Source: a virus
DNA: 23,501 nucleotides
Reading direction: 5' to 3' (one strand)
IMG/VR virus record: IMGVR_UViG_3300047548_000880
Location: 1 to 23,501 of that record
The position numbers and the translations under genes were made by a program. Below, in pieces: positions 5,474 to 21,341 of the stretch (positions are counted from its first letter, which is position 1; every line of letters begins with the position of its first letter). The notes under the pieces are model-generated. The model was not told the DNA's origin. It saw only the letters and a program-made list of their open reading frames with translations, and searched no databases.

Positions 5474-5683
5474 TCAAATTACTCCGAAGAAGAGGTTGCC
5501 AGTGAGAGCATAAGAAATAGCCCCAGCAACAATACCGACCATAGCCCAGCGTCCATTCATTTTCTCCGCCTTCTCGGCATAGGGTTCAAACCCGTAACGT
5601 TCGATGTCTTCTTTAGACATCCACATTGTAGGTTCTTTGGCAAACATATTCATTTGCCCGAACTCATTTTTTGTTACAGTCAT
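5474..5683 (-). CDS. hli: High-light-inducible protein (69 aa)
   Basis: A 69-aa Hlip. The N-terminal 38 residues are polar and hydrophilic. The chlorophyll-binding core then reads AEKMNGRWAMVG (Glu40, Asn43, Arg45 in canonical positions), followed by a membrane helix (IVAGAISYALTG) and a short end (NLFFGVI). This is the full ExxNGRxAM motif, unlike the 35-aa Hlip downstream. It would act in the thylakoid membrane, protecting photosystems during infection. It is the first gene of the light/redox operon, about 20 bases after the expected start of a near-consensus sigma-70 promoter, so it should be transcribed early by host polymerase. Confidence 0.95.
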   Translation of the reverse strand: MTVTKNEFGQMNMFAKEPTMWMSKEDIERYGFEPYAEKAEKMNGRWAMVGIVAGAISYALTGNLFFGVI

Positions 5684-5709: not shown

Positions 5710-5738
5710 ACTATATAGCAAAAAAAGAGGGGTGTCAA
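5710..5738 (-). promoter_or_regulatory. Sigma-70-type promoter of the light/redox operon
   Basis: The -35 box TTGACA (5733-5738), a 17-bp spacer and the -10 box TATAGT (5710-5715) match the bacterial consensus at 11 of 12 positions. The -35 box is the loop of the porin terminator hairpin, and the -10 box lies just after its T-tract. Confidence 0.85.
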
Positions 5739-5744
5739 CCCCTC
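5720..5744 (-). terminator. Rho-independent terminator of the porin gene
   Basis: The minus strand reads GAGGGG TTGACA CCCCTC followed by seven T. The stem is 6 bp around a TTGACA loop, or 7 bp around a 4-nt loop. It lies about 30 bases after the porin stop and overlaps the next promoter. Confidence 0.9.
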
Positions 5745-5774
5745 CTTAAGATTTTGTTTAGATTTGCTGACTTA

Positions 5775-7244
5775 TCAGAACTTGAAGGTTGTCTGGATTA
5801 CACCACCCCAGTTGGAAGAGTTATCAGCAAGACGTTGGTTGTCACTTGCGTAAAAGATGGCAGGAGTGATGCTGATGTTATCAGACACTTGATACTTGTA
5901 GAAGATTTCAAGCATCGTTGCCTTCTCAAGGTCTTCACCAGTAGGTGCTTGACCGATAGCAACACCAGCAGAGTTACCACCAACAAACACATCTTCCCAC
6001 TGAAGAGCTGCCATCCAGGATTGACTATCGGTAGCAGCACTAGCAGTACCACTTACAGTGTTCCAACCATAACCTGCAGAGACAGAAGGAACAATACCAG
6101 ACTTAGTTGGTTGCCAGTAAGCATTAAGAGCATAACCGTTAGAAGTTTGACCAGGAACCAGAGTGCCAGAAGAACCATTCAGACCGTTGTAGGTACGAAC
6201 ACGAGTGCCTTCAGTACCATAACGATAACCAAATGCAGCACCCCAGTTAGTACCACGATAACCGATTTGTGCGAGAGTATTCAGAGCACCAGACTCATCA
6301 AACTCACCCTTGGAACTATCTTGACCCGCTTGTGCAACATAGTTTACACCAGCAACAAGACCCTTCTTACCATACTGAACACCGAAACCAGCACCAGTTG
6401 CCTTGTTATAGACACCAGGAGTACCAGCAACAGCAAAGAAGTCAAGAATACCAGACTTATATGCAGAAGGAACCCAAGCAATCTCAGTGTTACGAACTGC
6501 AGCACCAGCAGTCAGAGTTGCTTTGTTATTGAAAGCAGGGAACTGATAATACAGACGGTCGATAACTACATTGTTACCAACTTCACTTGCAGTGTTGTCT
6601 GCTTTATCAAGTTTAAACAGAGAAGAACTGGAACCAAAAGGATCACTGCTAAAGTTAGCAGAACGCAGTCGAGTCTTGAGCAAATCCTTACCAGTGAATG
6701 AAGTATCCAGGTTCAGACGCAGATCGTAATTGAATGCAGCATGAGTTACATCACCACCTTTAGTTTGGTATCCATCAACGTTACCAAGAACGAAGGATGC
6801 TTCACCACGCAGTTTGGTAGTGGTAGAAAACTGGGTTGCTTCCAGAGTACCCACTTTTGCTTCCAGTTTGTCTACACGACCACGAATCACAGAGAGTTCA
6901 TCAGCAAACTCCTTTGCAAGACGTTGAAGTTCATCAGTAACTTCAGTCACACGATCCAGACATGCATTTAGAAGTGCTGCTGCCTCATAACGGGTCATTG
7001 CCTTGCCACCACCATAGGTGCCATTAGGATAACCAGCAACACAACCATAACGATCAACAAGATTGTTGAGTGCCTGATATGCCCAGTCAGTGGGTTGCAC
7101 ATCAGATAATTGCGTAATGCTTGTAACTTGTTCCGAGGTGGAATATTGATTTACTGCTGCCATATTGAGATCTGCGGCATTCGCAGCAGCAGGAGCAACA
7201 ATTCCCAGAGCAACAGGTGCAAGCATCAGTTGTTTGAGTTTCAT
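5775..7244 (-). CDS. Cyanobacterial-type SLH-domain outer-membrane porin
   Basis: A complete 489-aa protein resembling the SomA/OprB-type major porins of marine cyanobacteria. Residues 1-24 are a Sec signal peptide (KQLMLAPVALGIVAPAAANA, cleavage at ANA/AD). Residues about 45-95 are an SLH domain (DVQPTDWAYQALNNLVDRYG, YPNGTYGGGKAMTRYEAAALL) that anchors to peptidoglycan. Residues 100-135 form a coiled coil (ELQRLAKEFADELSVIRGRV). A beta-barrel with repeating aromatic strands follows, ending in Phe (VIQTTFKF), the usual BAM signal. It would let small solutes cross the outer membrane, possibly nutrients taken up during infection, or might alter phage adsorption. It has its own promoters and terminator. 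It is likely a captured host gene, because all domains are intact. Confidence 0.93.
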   Translation of the reverse strand: MKLKQLMLAPVALGIVAPAAANAADLNMAAVNQYSTSEQVTSITQLSDVQPTDWAYQALNNLVDRYGCVAGYPNGTYGGGKAMTRYEAAALLNACLDRVTEVTDELQRLAKEFADELSVIRGRVDKLEAKVGTLEATQFSTTTKLRGEASFVLGNVDGYQTKGGDVTHAAFNYDLRLNLDTSFTGKDLLKTRLRSANFSSDPFGSSSSLFKLDKADNTASEVGNNVVIDRLYYQFPAFNNKATLTAGAAVRNTEIAWVPSAYKSGILDFFAVAGTPGVYNKATGAGFGVQYGKKGLVAGVNYVAQAGQDSSKGEFDESGALNTLAQIGYRGTNWGAAFGYRYGTEGTRVRTYNGLNGSSGTLVPGQTSNGYALNAYWQPTKSGIVPSVSAGYGWNTVSGTASAATDSQSWMAALQWEDVFVGGNSAGVAIGQAPTGEDLEKATMLEIFYKYQVSDNISITPAIFYASDNQRLADNSSNWGGVIQTTFKF

Positions 7245-12984: not shown

Positions 12985-13673
12985 TCTAAGCTATCTACTA
13001 TCCAAAGAGTTTGTACGTGTGGATACGCATATCCATTTTGATATAATTTAGTCATCGAGATTCCCCACTTATCCAGAATCTCTTTATGTGCTCTTGATTC
13101 TCCATCTTTAAATTCTTCGAATCCTGGAGTACCACCCCAATCATCATATCCAATCAAAGTACCAGGAACAATAAGGTTATTCTCCATCAAATAATCAAAT
13201 GCATATTTGGTTGGAGAATAAATGTCTAAATCAAAATCCACATAAAATGCTGGTTTTAAATCTTTTTGTTTTGGAAGAGTTTCCTCAACAAGTCCAGCAA
13301 CAACAGATACTTTACTTTGATTATTTCTACCAGTAAAGATATTCTGAACTTCTTGCTGAATATGATTTGCACAATCATCTGGAGTATCCAGACTCATATA
13401 CTTTAGAACATTAAATTCATCTGGAAAAATATCTGGATTCCAAGAATCTTGGAATATAGGTTCTGCTGTTTCCTTTGGCATTCCAGTAAAAACATCAAAC
13501 CCATGGAAAGTATTAACTTCTATTTTATGTTTATTTAAAATAGAAGCAATTTCTTTCATCGACCCACCATTGAAAACACCAAATTGATAAACATCATAAT
13601 TTATCAATTCTTCTGTTTCAAAACTATTATGGTCGTTAACTGCAATATCTAATAATGAAGTTCTCCAACTCAT
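12981..13673 (-). CDS. TylF/MycF-like SAM-dependent O-methyltransferase
   Basis: A 230-aa class I methyltransferase. The SAM site is YQFGVFNGGSMKEIASIL, followed by FHGFDVFTGMPKET. The metal-binding acidic cluster lies in FYVDFDLDIYSPTKYAFDYL and in LIGYDDWGG, as in macrocin O-methyltransferase relatives, which are Mg-dependent sugar methylases. Both ends overlap neighbours by four bases (ATGA). It lies directly after the GDP-mannose 3,5-epimerase, so a sugar or its nucleotide form is the probable substrate. That is inference from position. Confidence 0.83.
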   Translation of the reverse strand: MSWRTSLLDIAVNDHNSFETEELINYDVYQFGVFNGGSMKEIASILNKHKIEVNTFHGFDVFTGMPKETAEPIFQDSWNPDIFPDEFNVLKYMSLDTPDDCANHIQQEVQNIFTGRNNQSKVSVVAGLVEETLPKQKDLKPAFYVDFDLDIYSPTKYAFDYLMENNLIVPGTLIGYDDWGGTPGFEEFKDGESRAHKEILDKWGISMTKLYQNGYAYPHVQTLWIVDSLE

Positions 13674-14725
13674 GATTGTTTCTGGGCAATTTGCTCACTA
13701 ATCCATTCATATGTTTTACGGATACCTTCTTCAAGAGTTTGAGAGTAATCCCAACCTAATTTTTCACGAATTAAATCATTATTAGAATTACGACCACGGA
13801 CACCAAGAGGAGCATCAAGTTTATGTTGCTTACTAACTTGTTTACCCGAAACTTTTGCTGCAGTATCTACGAGTTGATTAATAGTAACCATTTCTTCAGA
13901 ACCAATATTCACTGGTCCCATAAAATTAGAATCCATCAATCGTCTTGTTGCTTCGATGCACTCATCAATATAGAGGAAAGATCTTGTTTGTTTTCCATCT
14001 CCCCATACTTCGATAGCACCTCCCTCAGACGGAAGATATGCCACTTTCCTACAAATCGCAGCAGGAGCTTTTTCTCTTCCCCCTTCCCAGGTCCCTTCTG
14101 GTCCAAAGATGTTATGATATCTAGCAACACGTACAGGAATGCCGTAATTGCGATTGTAAGCAAAATATAGACGCTCACTAAAAAGTTTTTCCCAACCATA
14201 TTCAGAGTCTGGATTGGCAGGATAAGCAGAAGACTCCCTACAATCAGGATTATCGGGATCAAGTTGGTTATGCTCAGGATACATGCAAGCAGAACCAGAA
14301 TAGAAAATTTTAGTATCGTTTTTACCGAGTCGTTCATTTAGTTTATGCTGCTCTTCAAGAACATTCAAATTAATACTAACAGAGTTATGCATAATGTCTG
14401 CATCATTTTCACCAGTGAAGACAAATCCTGCACCACCCATATCTGCAGCAAATTGATAAATCTCATCAAATGCTTGAATGTAACGATAAGGAACTGAGTT
14501 GTAGAAATTACCTCTGTCTCCTTTATATTCAAGGACACGACGAACAAAATCTACATCACGCAAATCTCCTTGAACAAACTCATTTGCTTCAGTTGGAGAG
14601 TATTCAGGTATTTTAAGGTCTACCCCACGAACCCAATATCCTTCAGAACGAAGTCTTTTTACCATGTGACTTCCAATAAAACCACCAGCACCAAGAACAA
14701 GTGCTTTTTTAATGTATTGACCCAT
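13670..14725 (-). CDS. GDP-mannose 3,5-epimerase (GME-like)
   Basis: A 351-aa extended SDR converting GDP-D-mannose to GDP-L-galactose (and L-gulose). The NAD site is LGAGGFIGSH (residues 11-20). Tyr176/Lys180 (SEYGWEK) form the SDR pair. Cys147 in SGSACMYPE and Lys219 in GGREKAPAA are the two acid/base residues specific to GME. All four are shifted by two from the Arabidopsis enzyme numbering as I recall it (Tyr174, Lys178, Cys145, Lys217). Other GME blocks present are RYHNIFGPEGTWEGGREKAP, WGDGKQTRSF and GVRGRNSNN. It is the first gene of the glycan cassette and follows a strong sigma-70 promoter by about 30 bases, so it is probably transcribed early. Confidence 0.93.
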   Translation of the reverse strand: MGQYIKKALVLGAGGFIGSHMVKRLRSEGYWVRGVDLKIPEYSPTEANEFVQGDLRDVDFVRRVLEYKGDRGNFYNSVPYRYIQAFDEIYQFAADMGGAGFVFTGENDADIMHNSVSINLNVLEEQHKLNERLGKNDTKIFYSGSACMYPEHNQLDPDNPDCRESSAYPANPDSEYGWEKLFSERLYFAYNRNYGIPVRVARYHNIFGPEGTWEGGREKAPAAICRKVAYLPSEGGAIEVWGDGKQTRSFLYIDECIEATRRLMDSNFMGPVNIGSEEMVTINQLVDTAAKVSGKQVSKQHKLDAPLGVRGRNSNNDLIREKLGWDYSQTLEEGIRKTYEWISEQIAQKQS

Positions 14726-14760: not shown

Positions 14761-14789
14761 ATCATACTAAAAAAGAGGGGTATTGTAAA
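14761..14789 (-). promoter_or_regulatory. Sigma-70-type promoter of the glycan cassette
   Basis: The -35 box TTTACA (14784-14789), a 17-bp spacer and the -10 box TATGAT (14761-14766) each match consensus at 5 of 6 bases. The -35 lies in the loop region of the upstream terminator and the -10 directly follows its T-tract. Confidence 0.8.
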
Positions 14790-14796
14790 CCCCTCT
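14769..14796 (-). terminator. Rho-independent terminator of the gnd operon
   Basis: The minus strand forms an 8-bp stem (AGAGGGGT with ACCCCTCT) around a 7-nt TTACAAT loop, followed by a T-tract. It ends the operon that starts at 17845 and overlaps the glycan-cassette promoter. Confidence 0.88.
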
Positions 14797-14921
14797 CTTA
14801 GTATAATTCATTTTTAACTGGAATAATAACCAGGCGGGAGTTATCCCATCCGCACCACCAATTCTTTAGAGAAATTGGAAACTCAATCAGTTGTTCGATT
14901 TCTCGGCTCCACCACCTAGTT
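14797..14921 (-). other. Short non-coding gap with possible gene remnant
   Basis: After the 88-aa gene the minus strand keeps an open frame of about 45 codons (WWSREIEQLIEF, NWWCGWDNSRLVIIPV) that ends at a TAA near 14803. It has no ATG, GTG or TTG start and begins right after an in-frame stop. Its residue mix looks protein-like, so it could be the tail of a decayed gene. Otherwise I see nothing here. Confidence 0.3.
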
Positions 14922-15188
14922 TTACTTGACTAGGAAAAGTTGTATGAGTTTTGGTAATTCTATAGCAGCATAAAAACCACATAAAAATAGTATATCCCAA
15001 AACTTATATTTGATTGCAAAGGGAACAACAAAAATATTCCCAATACATTTTACAAATAACCCAATTTTCATATCCCCCCACAACAGGAAAAAATATCCTG
15101 ATAATAGAAGAATATTGCCAATGTATCTGAAAAAATCAGATTTTGCCATAAGGGGGGATTGCTTCCGACCAGTGCTGTTAAAGTCCAT
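14922..15188 (-). CDS. Small multi-pass membrane protein (88 aa)
   Basis: An 88-aa hydrophobic protein with about three membrane segments: NILLLSGYFFLLWG, GLFVKCIGNIFVVPFAI, and WDILFLCGFYAAIEL. I recall similar short proteins with a GYF..LLWGD motif in marine cyanobacteria and their phages, of unknown function. The ATG at 15188 follows the upstream stop by six bases. Met14 (position 15149) is an alternative start that would remove a polar, unconserved-looking leader. Neither has a clear Shine-Dalgarno. It is the last gene of the gnd operon. Confidence 0.72.
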   Translation of the reverse strand: MDFNSTGRKQSPLMAKSDFFRYIGNILLLSGYFFLLWGDMKIGLFVKCIGNIFVVPFAIKYKFWDILFLCGFYAAIELPKLIQLFLVK

Positions 15189-18198: not shown

Positions 18199-18219
18199 TT
18201 TTCTTTTCGGTTATAAAAG

Positions 18220-18290
18220 AGCGGACAACGAGGATCGAACTCATGATTTCAACTTGGAAGGATGACGTGTTACCTCTACACCATGTCCGC
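18220..18290 (-). tRNA. tRNA-Gly (anticodon UCC)
   Basis: The 71-nt minus-strand sequence folds as a cloverleaf. The acceptor GCGGACA pairs with TGTCCGC, discriminator base T. The D-arm is GTGT..ACAC. The anticodon loop is CTTCCAA (anticodon TCC), the same loop as E. coli tRNA-Gly(UCC). The T-arm is ATGAG-TTCGATC-CTCGT with one G-U pair. The anticodon stem TCATC/GTTGA has one U-U mismatch at its fourth pair. CCA is not encoded. It would read GGA and perhaps GGG codons, useful for an AT-rich phage. Confidence 0.93.
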
Positions 18291-18299
18291 ATTGTTTAA

Positions 18300-18327
18300 A
18301 TTATATATTATATAATAAAAATGTCAA
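18300..18327 (-). promoter_or_regulatory. Consensus sigma-70 promoter of the tRNA-Gly gene
   Basis: A perfect -35 TTGACA (18322-18327), a 16-bp spacer and a perfect -10 TATAAT (18300-18305) precede the tRNA, with the expected start within about five bases of its 5' end. The -35 directly follows the stem of the upstream hairpin. Confidence 0.85.
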
Positions 18328-18354
18328 GGGGAGAGATTTTTGCTGCTCTCCCCC
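18328..18354 (-). terminator. Hairpin terminator of the tail-lysozyme-like gene
   Basis: On the minus strand GGGGAGAG pairs with CTCTCCCC (8 bp) around a 10-nt loop, 14 bases after the stop. The sequence after the stem is TTGACATTTTT, so the T-tract is interrupted by the next -35 box and termination may be partial. Confidence 0.65.
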
Positions 18355-19171: not shown

Positions 19172-19365
19172 AAATCCAAATAATAACCGCTGATATAATC
19201 CAAAGATATTACTTGAAGATTCTCTTTTTGAATAACCCAATCTCTAATCTCACTATAGACACTTTCGGCATCTTTGATTCGACCTTCATCACACAATTCA
19301 TGCATACGATTAATGTGCTGTTCAATTAGTGTATTGCAAACTTTTTTTACTCTTAGGTCATTCAT
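19168..19365 (-). CDS. Small hypothetical helical protein (65 aa)
   Basis: A 65-aa soluble protein with two helices (VKKVCNTLIEQHINRMHELC, EGRIKDAESVYSEIRDWVIQ) and a strand-like end (LQVISLDYISGYYLDF). The helix pair resembles a TPR-like hairpin, but a single hairpin is weak evidence. The ATG overlaps the end of the nuclease-like gene by eight bases, so the two are coupled. No function known. Confidence 0.72.
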   Translation of the reverse strand: MNDLRVKKVCNTLIEQHINRMHELCDEGRIKDAESVYSEIRDWVIQKENLQVISLDYISGYYLDF

Positions 19366-19783
19366 TGAAATAATCCTTCCGATAATATCTTCCTAGGACG
19401 TTAGAATTGTAGTACGCTGGTTCTCCAGTGTCAAGAGACTCTATTAGAACATTGTTCATAAACAACTGTCTGGTCTCTTCGTAATTTACTTTACCAAGAG
19501 TTTTATGCAGTGATATTATTTCTCTATCAAAGTTTTCTTTACCATATTTTTTGATATCTTCTTTCAATTCTGGACAAGAACCATAGTACTTTTTCCAATC
19601 AGATTCTTGCTTTACTTTTCTAGTCTTCCCCTTTGGTTTCCTAAAGGACCAAAAATATTTCCTACCAATGTATTTCCTGCTATTAATACTATTCTTGATA
19701 AGATAAACAAAACCAAAATTATCTTGAATATCACAAGACTCAAAAATTTCTCCATTAAATTTCCAAGGATTTTCATAGCTCAT
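19358..19783 (-). CDS. SegE/GIY-YIG-like putative endonuclease
   Basis: A 141-aa protein. After a short start (MSYENPWKFNGEIFES) it shows a degenerate GIY-YIG core: FGFVYLIKNSINSRKYIGRK, with Tyr in VYLI, YIG, and a following basic helix (FRKPKGKTRKVKQESDWKKY). A conserved YGSCPELKEDIKKYGKENFD segment and a likely catalytic Glu near NYEETRQLFM follow. This is the layout of the SegE-like nucleases of T4-type phages, which act as free-standing homing endonucleases. No intron is visible nearby. A sigma-70 promoter lies about 60 bases upstream. Confidence 0.82.
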   Translation of the reverse strand: MSYENPWKFNGEIFESCDIQDNFGFVYLIKNSINSRKYIGRKYFWSFRKPKGKTRKVKQESDWKKYYGSCPELKEDIKKYGKENFDREIISLHKTLGKVNYEETRQLFMNNVLIESLDTGEPAYYNSNVLGRYYRKDYFNE

Positions 19784-19844: not shown

Positions 19845-19874
19845 ATTTTAGACATAAAAAAACACCCCCGTCAA
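19845..19874 (-). promoter_or_regulatory. Sigma-70-type promoter of the nuclease-like gene
   Basis: The -35 TTGACG (19869-19874), an 18-bp spacer and the -10 TAAAAT (19845-19850) each match consensus at 5 of 6 bases. The -35 is exactly the loop of the upstream terminator hairpin. Confidence 0.7.
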
Positions 19875-19882
19875 GGGGTGTT
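19856..19882 (-). terminator. Rho-independent terminator of the late structural block
   Basis: The minus strand forms an 8-bp stem (AACACCCC with GGGGTGTT) around a TTGACG loop, followed by a T-tract. It lies 22 bases after the stop of the 478-aa gene. Confidence 0.92.
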
Positions 19883-19904: not shown

Positions 19905-21341
19905 TCAATTACCGTTTAGAATTTCATTTAACCAAACTTCACTCATATTTTCAATGATTACATTTGCATCATTTAGACTTTCTGCAAAACTATTTTCAAG
20001 CAAATATGATACTACAATTTCATAAACAGAATACTCTTCACCCAATTGCTTTTTCTCTTTTGGAGTTAAAGTTCCTGCACTTCTTGCAGAACCTCTTGCT
20101 GATTGTAGGTCCTTATCACTACCAGATACCTTAGCAGCATATCCTCTAAGACCACCCTCACCCCTTACGGACTTTCTTCTGGATGAAGCAAGTCCTCTTA
20201 GAGTCTTTGCCTTCTTTTCATCTCTAGTCCAGTCTGCTGCTCTTTCTGCTGCTGCGATAGTCTTGTCTACACTTCCAGAACGATTATGTGCCTTAGAACG
20301 TGCTGCAAGTTCCTTGCGGGTTGCAGTCTCACCCCCCTTGCCGAGTTCTTTACGCATTCTAGTTGCTTCGTCTAGTTCAACCTCTTCATTATAAGGCTTG
20401 TTCTTAACTGCTGCGATTGCTTCTGCTTTTGACATTCCAGATGCAATCATTCTTGCAATTCTTACATCTGCAAAATCATTATCACCATCCTTATCTTGAT
20501 CTTTTTTCTTTGCCTCATAAATTGAAGCATATGCACTAGCAACATCTTTAAGTGTTGCTTTTGTTCCCCATTGGAAAGAAGACATTATAGCTCCTGGTTT
20601 TTTGATAGGAGAAGTGGAAGGTGTTGGTTTTGCGGTTAACGATTGAGATGAAAAAGCAGTTGAAGTTTGGTTTGTAGTTGGTTTAGTAGATGCCGCAGTT
20701 CCAGCAGATTGCACAGCAGGTGCTGATGATGCCAATGCTGGTGTTGATTTTGCGAATGCTGTTGTTGATGTTGTTGGTGAAGGTGATTTTGGTGCAGGAA
20801 GTCTATCTTTAAAATCCTTCATTAGAGGATTTGTAGTTGCACTAGTTCCTCTTGTTCTATCTCTTTCTGCTTTTGCTGCAGCAAGTTTTGGATTTGCAGC
20901 AGCCCACTGGTCCATTGCTGACCCTGCTGGTTTTGCTGGAGTTGCTGGTTTTGCTGAAGACGGAGCAACTTTAGCACTTGAAGTTGCTGTTGGTTTTACA
21001 GAAGAACTTGAACTACCAGAAGTTAATGGAGAAGAAGTTGGTTTTGAACCAACCACAGGAGAACCCTTTATTTGTCTTGCCCTAGCAATTGCAGCATCTC
21101 TGTTTCCAGCAAAACGTGATTTAAATGGTTCTGCTGCTGGTCTAGCTGCGGTTGGAACTGGAGCAGCACCTCTTCTCGATCCTTGAGCACTAGGAGTTGG
21201 TCTCCAAATATTTGAATTGGAACCAGTTCTTGTTCCTTGTTCCTCAAGGTGTGAACTTTCAGTCAAATAATCACTGTTACTTTTGGGCAAATAGACACCT
21301 TCATATAAACCTGCCAAAGCATCCAAGTCTTCTTTCTTCAT
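19905..21341 (-). CDS. Disordered Ala/Pro/Ser/Thr-rich putative head-internal or structural protein (478 aa)
   Basis: The N-terminus has a short helix (EDLDALAGLYEGVY) and a YLTE site resembling the T4 prohead-protease cleavage pattern (L/I-x-E). Residues about 40-270 are low-complexity Ala/Pro/Ser/Thr with Lys. A second copy of the short helix follows (TLKDVASAYASIYEA), then a Ca-binding-like DQDKDGDND loop leading into VRIARMIASGMSKAEAIAAV. A basic region (residues about 330-420) comes next. The C-terminal 40 residues (YEIVVSYLLENSFAES, then an NMSEVWLNEIL end) share a pattern with the 531-aa protein. I recall similar late proteins in cyanophages. An internal head protein packaged with DNA is my inference. 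Two late boxes precede the gene. Confidence 0.82.
   Translation of the reverse strand: MKKEDLDALAGLYEGVYLPKSNSDYLTESSHLEEQGTRTGSNSNIWRPTPSAQGSRRGAAPVPTAARPAAEPFKSRFAGNRDAAIARARQIKGSPVVGSKPTSSPLTSGSSSSSVKPTATSSAKVAPSSAKPATPAKPAGSAMDQWAAANPKLAAAKAERDRTRGTSATTNPLMKDFKDRLPAPKSPSPTTSTTAFAKSTPALASSAPAVQSAGTAASTKPTTNQTSTAFSSQSLTAKPTPSTSPIKKPGAIMSSFQWGTKATLKDVASAYASIYEAKKKDQDKDGDNDFADVRIARMIASGMSKAEAIAAVKNKPYNEEVELDEATRMRKELGKGGETATRKELAARSKAHNRSGSVDKTIAAAERAADWTRDEKKAKTLRGLASSRRKSVRGEGGLRGYAAKVSGSDKDLQSARGSARSAGTLTPKEKKQLGEEYSVYEIVVSYLLENSFAESLNDANVIIENMSEVWLNEILNGN

Follow-up and report, generated by a model that had tools for sequence, protein, structure and literature searches.

Cyanophages of the Kyanoviridae carry, far above chance, predicted terminator hairpins whose loop is the -35 box of the promoter that follows, a design found in none of the coliphage relatives or host genomes that we checked. 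These elements very probably act as interdigitated intrinsic terminator-promoters that insulate and restart transcription between co-directional genes; here and below, termination, initiation, their timing and any benefit are read from sequence signals. The window, by which we mean the whole 23.5-kb stretch analysed, is a fragment of a T4-like cyanophage of Kyanoviridae type; its best hits at the DNA level are to Synechococcus phages. It has genes for a porin, a high-light-inducible protein, peroxiredoxin, ferredoxin, 6-phosphogluconate dehydrogenase and nucleotide-sugar epimerases, and its minus strand carries nearly all of its genes together with all four reported elements.

A preliminary description of this DNA had claimed four copies of the design. 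All four were found where it placed them, on the minus strand (Table 1); three (sites 1-3) are true fusions of loop and -35 box, whereas site 4 is an adjacent form with another geometry. The stem at site 1 does enclose TTGACA, with TATAGT 17 bp on, and at site 4 TTGACA directly follows the 3′ side of the stem at a spacing of 16, both as described. At sites 1-3 a GC-rich hairpin runs at once into a series of T residues, the sequence signature of an intrinsic terminator, and the -10 box sits just past the U-tract, 17 or 18 bp from the -35 box; the -35 hexamer of site 3 begins one base within the stem. Site 4 has the hairpin with a broken T-tract (TTGACATTTTTATT). Each of the four sites carries the hexamer pair of a sigma70-type promoter, TTGACA-like and TATAAT-like boxes 16-18 bp apart. 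Some elements have imperfect boxes (10/12 at sites 2 and 3), which counts against the terminator-promoter reading.

Table 1. Features of the four sites, their neighbouring genes and related loci. L numbers are our own handles for the sequences compared.
Feature	Position	Strand	Remarks
Site 1 element, AAGGAGGGG-TTGACA-CCCCTC-TTTTTTTGCTA-TATAGT	5747-5710	-	spacing 17; promoter match 11/12
Site 1 hairpin, AAGGAGGGGT-tgac-ACCCCTCTTT	5724..5747	-	T-tract then to ~5720; predicted -14.7 kcal/mol
Site 1 -35 box, TTGACA	5733..5738	-	covers hairpin loop; 6/6 consensus
Site 1 -10 box, TATAGT	5710..5715	-	17 bp after -35
Gene upstream of site 1, OprB-type porin with SLH domain	5775..7244	-	Pfam OprB 1.6e-13, SLH 1.8e-7
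Gene downstream of site 1, high-light-inducible protein	5474..5683	-	PHROG 178, 2.3e-30
Site 2 element, AACACCCC-TTGACG-GGGGTGTT-TTTTTATGTC-TAAAAT	19882-19845	-	spacing 18; promoter match 10/12
Site 2 hairpin, AACACCCCT-tgac-GGGGGTGTT	19861..19882	-	T-tract follows; predicted -13.9 kcal/mol
Site 2 -35 box, TTGACG	19869..19874	-	5/6; inside loop
Site 2 -10 box, TAAAAT	19845..19850	-	5/6; spacing 18
Gene upstream of site 2, 478-aa protein	19905..21341	-	no family match
Gene downstream of site 2, SegE-type GIY-YIG endonuclease	19358..19783	-	Pfam SegE_GIY-YIG 1.2e-51
Site 3 element, GAGAGGGG-TTTACA-ATACCCCTC-TTTTTTAG-TATGAT	14799-14761	-	spacing 17; promoter match 10/12
Site 3 hairpin, AAGAGAGGGGT-ttacaat-ACCCCTCTTTT	14771..14799	-	predicted -16.4 kcal/mol
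Site 3 -35 box, TTTACA	14784..14789	-	5/6
Site 3 -10 box, TATGAT	14761..14766	-	5/6; spacing 17
wcaG RNA (RF01761), directly upstream of site 3 hairpin	14796..14886	-	cmscan 61 bits, E 2.6e-9
Gene upstream of site 3 and wcaG RNA, 88-aa protein	14922..15188	-	PHROG 2318, 4.6e-17
Gene downstream of site 3, NAD-dependent nucleotide-sugar epimerase	13670..14725	-	Pfam Epimerase 1.9e-36; PHROG 540
Site 4 hairpin, GGGGGAGAG-loop-CTCTCCCCT	18327..18354	-	-35 abuts 3′ arm, not fused; predicted -15.0 kcal/mol
Site 4 promoter, TTGACA-N16-TATAAT	18300..18327	-	12/12
tRNA-Gly (TCC), predicted target of site 4 promoter	18219..18290	-	
wcaG loci	window 14886-14761; L031:1709-1820; L070:6912; L082:2392; L085:6801; L190:11427-11580		
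RB49 early promoters with spacer-filling (exactly 17 bp) or -10-in-loop hairpins	L212-L219		

The site 4 layout of GC-rich hairpin, strong promoter and apparent tRNA gene recurs in related contigs, at L084:277, L085:2577 and L040:5475, with a confirmed tRNA behind it at L084:316-386.

Fused motifs were counted at thresholds of our own choosing, a combined -35 and -10 match of at least 10/12 and a stem of at least 6 or 5. At these settings the window holds three fused elements among six strong terminators, against a mean of 0.003 in 300 dinucleotide-preserving shuffles of the window, none of which reached three. A generic promoter scan of the window returned 72 matches where 69.3 were expected, which is no enrichment, so the signal lies in the combination of hairpin and promoter and not in the hexamers alone. 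Extending the count to 2.1 Mb of related viral contigs, retrieved with porin and gnd baits, gave 119 fused elements with redundant copies included, and 0, 0, 0, 1 and 0 in five shuffles; the scan that the preliminary description had proposed, for TTGACA-like loops with a -10 box at 16-18 bp in cyanophages against shuffled sequence, thus returns a very strong enrichment. With near-copies removed, the design is present in 30 of 214 terminators of these contigs. Redundancy was cut by k-mer clustering without phylogeny and the related contigs are partly non-independent, making p-values indicative, yet the effects are large enough that this handling leaves the verdict unaffected.

The enrichment is specific to both the loop sequence and the spacing. 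In the loops of 382 non-redundant cyanophage terminators, the hexamer seen most often is TTGACA, with 23 occurrences where its 179 permutations average 0.66; 47 terminators (~12%) have a loop that matches it at five or more of six positions. In 27 of these 47, a TATAAT-like hexamer (at least 5/6) lies at exactly 17 bp, with every other spacing represented at most five times; the remaining 335 terminators show no peak, and 11 of them have such a hexamer at 17 bp. Among non-redundant fused elements of the relatives, 37 of 46 have a spacing of 17. Ordinary terminators of the same cyanophages share a GC stem and a U-tract with the fused ones, and the two kinds are about equally stable (median -13.3 against -12.4 kcal/mol, p 0.055), but the ordinary kind has loops such as CTTCGG and no -10 enrichment at 17 bp. 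In a reverse test, we picked 1,571 non-redundant promoter-like sites blind to hairpins, a set that includes many false positives. A hairpin centred on the -35 box accompanies 27 of the 68 sites with a T-tract in the spacer versus 14 of the 1,503 without (Fisher p ~1e-29), and the hairpin rate falls to 2.4% upon shuffling of the 14 nt upstream. Because this promoter-first test finds the hairpins too, the enrichment seen from terminator loops is not circular.

The fusion is restricted by lineage. Counted at 10/12 or better, it occurs in the complete phages S-SRM01 (3 of 28 terminators), S-SM2 (2/15), S-PM2 (1/20), P-SSM2 (3/22) and P-SSM4 (4/20). At the same threshold it is absent from the complete genomes of the cyanomyoviruses Syn9, S-CRM01 and SynMITS9220M01, and is therefore not essential. 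It is likewise absent from the pelagiphage HTVC008M, the podovirus Syn5 and the phages T4, RB49 and Aeh1, the last three having no terminator with a -35 box in its loop (nearly whole records were scanned for HTVC008M, Syn5 and Aeh1). An exact form built on the GGGG-TTGACA-CCCC core, GGGGTTGACACCCC-N13-TATAAT, is found in 51 of 2.9 million IMG/VR contigs, versus none of the 2.9 million for a reversed-loop version. For 49 of the 51 contigs the best protein matches are to Kyanoviridae, never to T4, RB49 or Aeh1; the other two have no match among these reference phages. A clear T-tract is present in ~40 of the 51, and the ~11 without one suggest that a smaller part of the set may combine a promoter with an inverted repeat but lack a terminator. 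Several GGGGTTGACACCCC promoters without a T-tract (L506, L507, L508, L526, L536, L544, L513 and L514) have a common downstream pattern, for example TGCCCAGATGCCC-TATAAT, and perhaps form a different promoter class.

We also followed the elements at a single locus, the 3′ end of the porin gene, where the fusion occurs in 31 of 78 sequences and takes 19 distinct forms. The stems there include GGGGGC/GCCCCT, AAGAGGGG/CCCCTCTT, GGGGGGTT/AACCCCCT, AAGAGGGTG/CACCCTCTT, AGGGGTCT/AGACCCTT, GGGGGTTG/CAACTCCC and others, their two arms covarying, while the -35 core, the -10 box and the spacing (17, once 18) stay constant. In other contigs this position is occupied by a plain terminator whose loop is ordinary, sometimes with a separate promoter after it (L022, L041 and L056). 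In the cyanophage elements the centre of the hairpin lies within ~2 bp of the centre of the -35 box, and elements whose centre falls on the same base may have either GGGG/CCCC or CCCC/GGGG arms. This turnover of stems, with the swap of G and C arms, points to repeated adjustment of one functional layout and speaks against a palindrome bound by protein.

These observations bear on several simpler accounts of the design. The AT-rich DNA of the window is full of promoter-like matches, and common sequence of this kind could overlap terminators by accident; the near-zero counts in shuffles, permuted hexamers, the reversed-loop scan and coliphage relatives refute this and leave chance a negligible probability. 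Selection of the loop for RNA stability is also unlikely, as the top terminator loop in a general virus sample is CTTCGG, and TTGACA forms the loop of 0 of 91 GGGG-N6-CCCC-T6 hairpins sampled across viruses at large. An origin from the host is rejected for the exact core: a pattern search across the whole cyanobacterial class (390 genomes) gave 13 GGGGTTGACACCCC matches versus 28 for the reversed control, hence no enrichment, and none of the 13 has a -10 match above 4/6. An inverted repeat over the -35 box is the classic position of an operator, here one bound by a phage or host repressor or activator, and some exact-pattern matches do lack a T-tract. A specific protein site would not tolerate arms that differ so widely between orthologous positions, however, and the hairpins accompany T-tracts that an operator does not need, making this account very improbable. 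Freshwater cyanophages have a separate class of early promoters with no T-tract and with a palindrome, GCCAGT-N4..6-ACTGGC or similar, whose midpoint lies 16 bp upstream of that of the -35 box (L005:15636, L007:7382, L011:5309, L050:16635, L065:5314, L096:12001, L103:3169, L150:6697 and L153:6700), which is a candidate protein-binding site.

The placement of the elements between genes is consistent with a role at operon boundaries. Counting redundant copies, 143 of 174 elements lie between two co-directional ORFs and none of the 174 lies inside an ORF on the same strand, with median distances of 22 nt from the upstream stop to the hairpin and 35 nt from the -10 box to the next start codon. The porin and a PstS-like protein are among the products encoded upstream; those encoded downstream include a high-light-inducible protein, a SegE-type endonuclease, an epimerase, glutaredoxin and ThyX (the names PstS, glutaredoxin and ThyX were assigned by eye, from translations). 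The earlier suggestion of a standard operon-boundary element is borne out as to position between co-directional genes, but "standard" overstates it: the fusion is one common solution, used by about an eighth of terminators and missing in three cyanomyoviruses.

We propose that both signals operate in these ~45 bp. As RNA made by polymerase arriving from the upstream gene, the GC-rich hairpin and U-tract would stop the transcript. As DNA, the same loop would serve as -35 box, with the 3′ arm and T-tract filling the 17-bp spacer and the -10 box directly after, allowing a host sigma70-type holoenzyme to start the next transcript ~35 nt before the next start codon. A terminator leaves its loop free and a promoter leaves its 17-bp spacer free, so the two can interleave and both be fully satisfied. 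Because the start site would lie beyond the -10 box, the RNA hairpin would form only in transcripts from upstream and cannot be the leader of the new one. The probable function of the element is to keep the upstream unit from reading through or occluding the promoter, and to restart transcription downstream, so that the high-light-inducible protein, SegE-type endonuclease, epimerase, glutaredoxin or ThyX gene would gain an early promoter of its own, with stop and restart packed together.

The closest known systems are the PeSL cassettes of T4-type phages, consisting of an early promoter and a stem-loop. Where PMC4503421 touches on them, it cites PeSLs as mediating gene shuffling and says that the authors of the S-PM2 work sought them in one region, in which they were not dense. 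PeSLs of RB49/phi1, PST and nt-1 (Arbiol et al. 2010, Comeau et al. 2014) share with the elements described here a sigma70-like early promoter, a stem-loop described as a terminator, an intergenic position and a T4-type phage genome. The cyanophage elements agree with PeSLs in that they, too, combine early promoter and stem-loop in one short intergenic cassette. Recombination between PeSL copies reportedly yields mini-circles, as Arbiol and colleagues are said to have found in 2010. Judged by the RB49 sequence itself, the geometry there is of two kinds, neither with a canonical U-tract: the hairpin takes up the -35/-10 spacer (TTGACA-GGGGATCGGTGATCCCC-TATAAT), or its loop contains the -10 box (GGGGGTAG-TAATAT-ACCCCC). 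RB49 hairpins are thus ~11 or 21 bp downstream of the -35 centre, whereas the cyanophage hairpin sits on the -35 box, within 2 bp, and has its U-tract in the spacer; the cyanophage element is accordingly PeSL-like in working and differently built. In phiX174, an overlapping promoter-terminator in one short intergenic stretch decouples neighbouring genes (PMC9135205). That case, which we know from its description, is a single element in a small phage, unlike the cyanophage fusion with its many loci and changing stems. We found no description of a -35 box within a terminator loop in the part of the literature that we searched.

Two further proposals accept the anatomy and differ on why it is kept. 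If the elements were mobile cassettes of the PeSL type, retained mainly as short homologous sites for gene shuffling between phages, synteny should often break at them, and it does so more than at plain junctions (0.50 versus 0.32, p ~6e-6, at non-independent sites), in line with the shuffling attributed to PeSLs where PMC4503421 mentions them. Stand-alone terminators mark breaks equally, though (0.48, p 0.88 against fused elements), which suggests that module edges coincide with terminators of any kind, with no measurable contribution from the fusion; nothing here supports the fusion as a special hot spot of recombination. Stems that vary between copies also leave little shared homology, and we consider the cassette account improbable. 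The other proposal couples termination to initiation: a polymerase that has released its RNA would be left between the -35 and -10 boxes and reinitiate by recapture or short-range diffusion, upstream transcription thereby feeding the downstream promoter. The predicted RNA end does lie inside the promoter, ~16-18 bp from the predicted start. Such reinitiation is physically plausible, as polymerase has been shown in vitro to diffuse on DNA after termination and reinitiate at nearby promoters (37%, and 55% with added sigma70), in a manner that the authors expect to depend on the distance between terminator and promoter (PMC6978380). The sequence features would nevertheless be the same under coupling and under simple compactness, and one locus, the porin end, can carry either the fused or the stand-alone form. 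Sigma, moreover, is usually lost during elongation. Coupling is accordingly a reading that we regard as unlikely, and it is a doubtful step further to suppose that the -35-centred hairpin of Kyanoviridae was selected because the terminating polymerase passes straight to the promoter under it, as an operon relay beyond a space-saving boundary.

As probable terminator-promoters, the elements would provide a compact and easily searched operon-boundary marker for an abundant marine and freshwater virus family, from which annotators gain paired predictions of a 3′ end and a 5′ start. Terminator and promoter appear to have been fused in differing geometries by T4-type phage lineages. The variants are natural constructs for studying how polymerase is recycled from a terminator to an overlapping promoter, a question so far addressed on artificial templates, and could serve in engineering as a ready insulator-promoter.

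Site 3 is the only one of the sites with a wcaG RNA, whose match exceeds the RF01761 gathering score (61 versus 42 bits). In five of six distinct sequences, including the isolate S-SRM01, a wcaG RNA is followed 28-48 nt on by a terminator with a -35-like loop (TTTACA, TTGCAA or TTGCAT) and a -10 box at 17 bp. This RNA adjoins site 3 and its relatives, but it is a separate structured RNA and no part of the fusion of hairpin and -35 box at sites 1 and 2. A cis-regulatory role in cyanophages has been predicted for it, at positions ahead of exopolysaccharide or high-light genes (PMC2864571). Since wcaG lies upstream of the gene's nearest promoter and not in a simple 5′ leader, it would act on the gene only via transcripts from further upstream, or else be part of the upstream transcript, at its 3′ end. 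The recurrent arrangement and the earlier cis-regulatory proposal would both suit a regulated attenuator at site 3 and its relatives, in which wcaG gates upstream transcription past the terminator into the epimerase gene and the fused promoter gives a basal supply. Folding of the whole stretch, however, showed no base competition or shared pairing between wcaG and the terminator and no visible antiterminator between them, and the idea is inapplicable to sites 1 and 2; we hold it as a tentative and rather unlikely addition for this subset. In the 181-kb S-SRM01 region, a match to the Rfam abiF RNA (RF03085) lies beside a tRNA cluster (L190:4077-4113). Elsewhere on the minus strand of the window, positions 897-1130 are a long repetitive stretch of GGTTCTGGTGTTGGCTCAGGTGTA type within an open ORF of 679 aa, encoding Pro/Glu-rich protein repeats.
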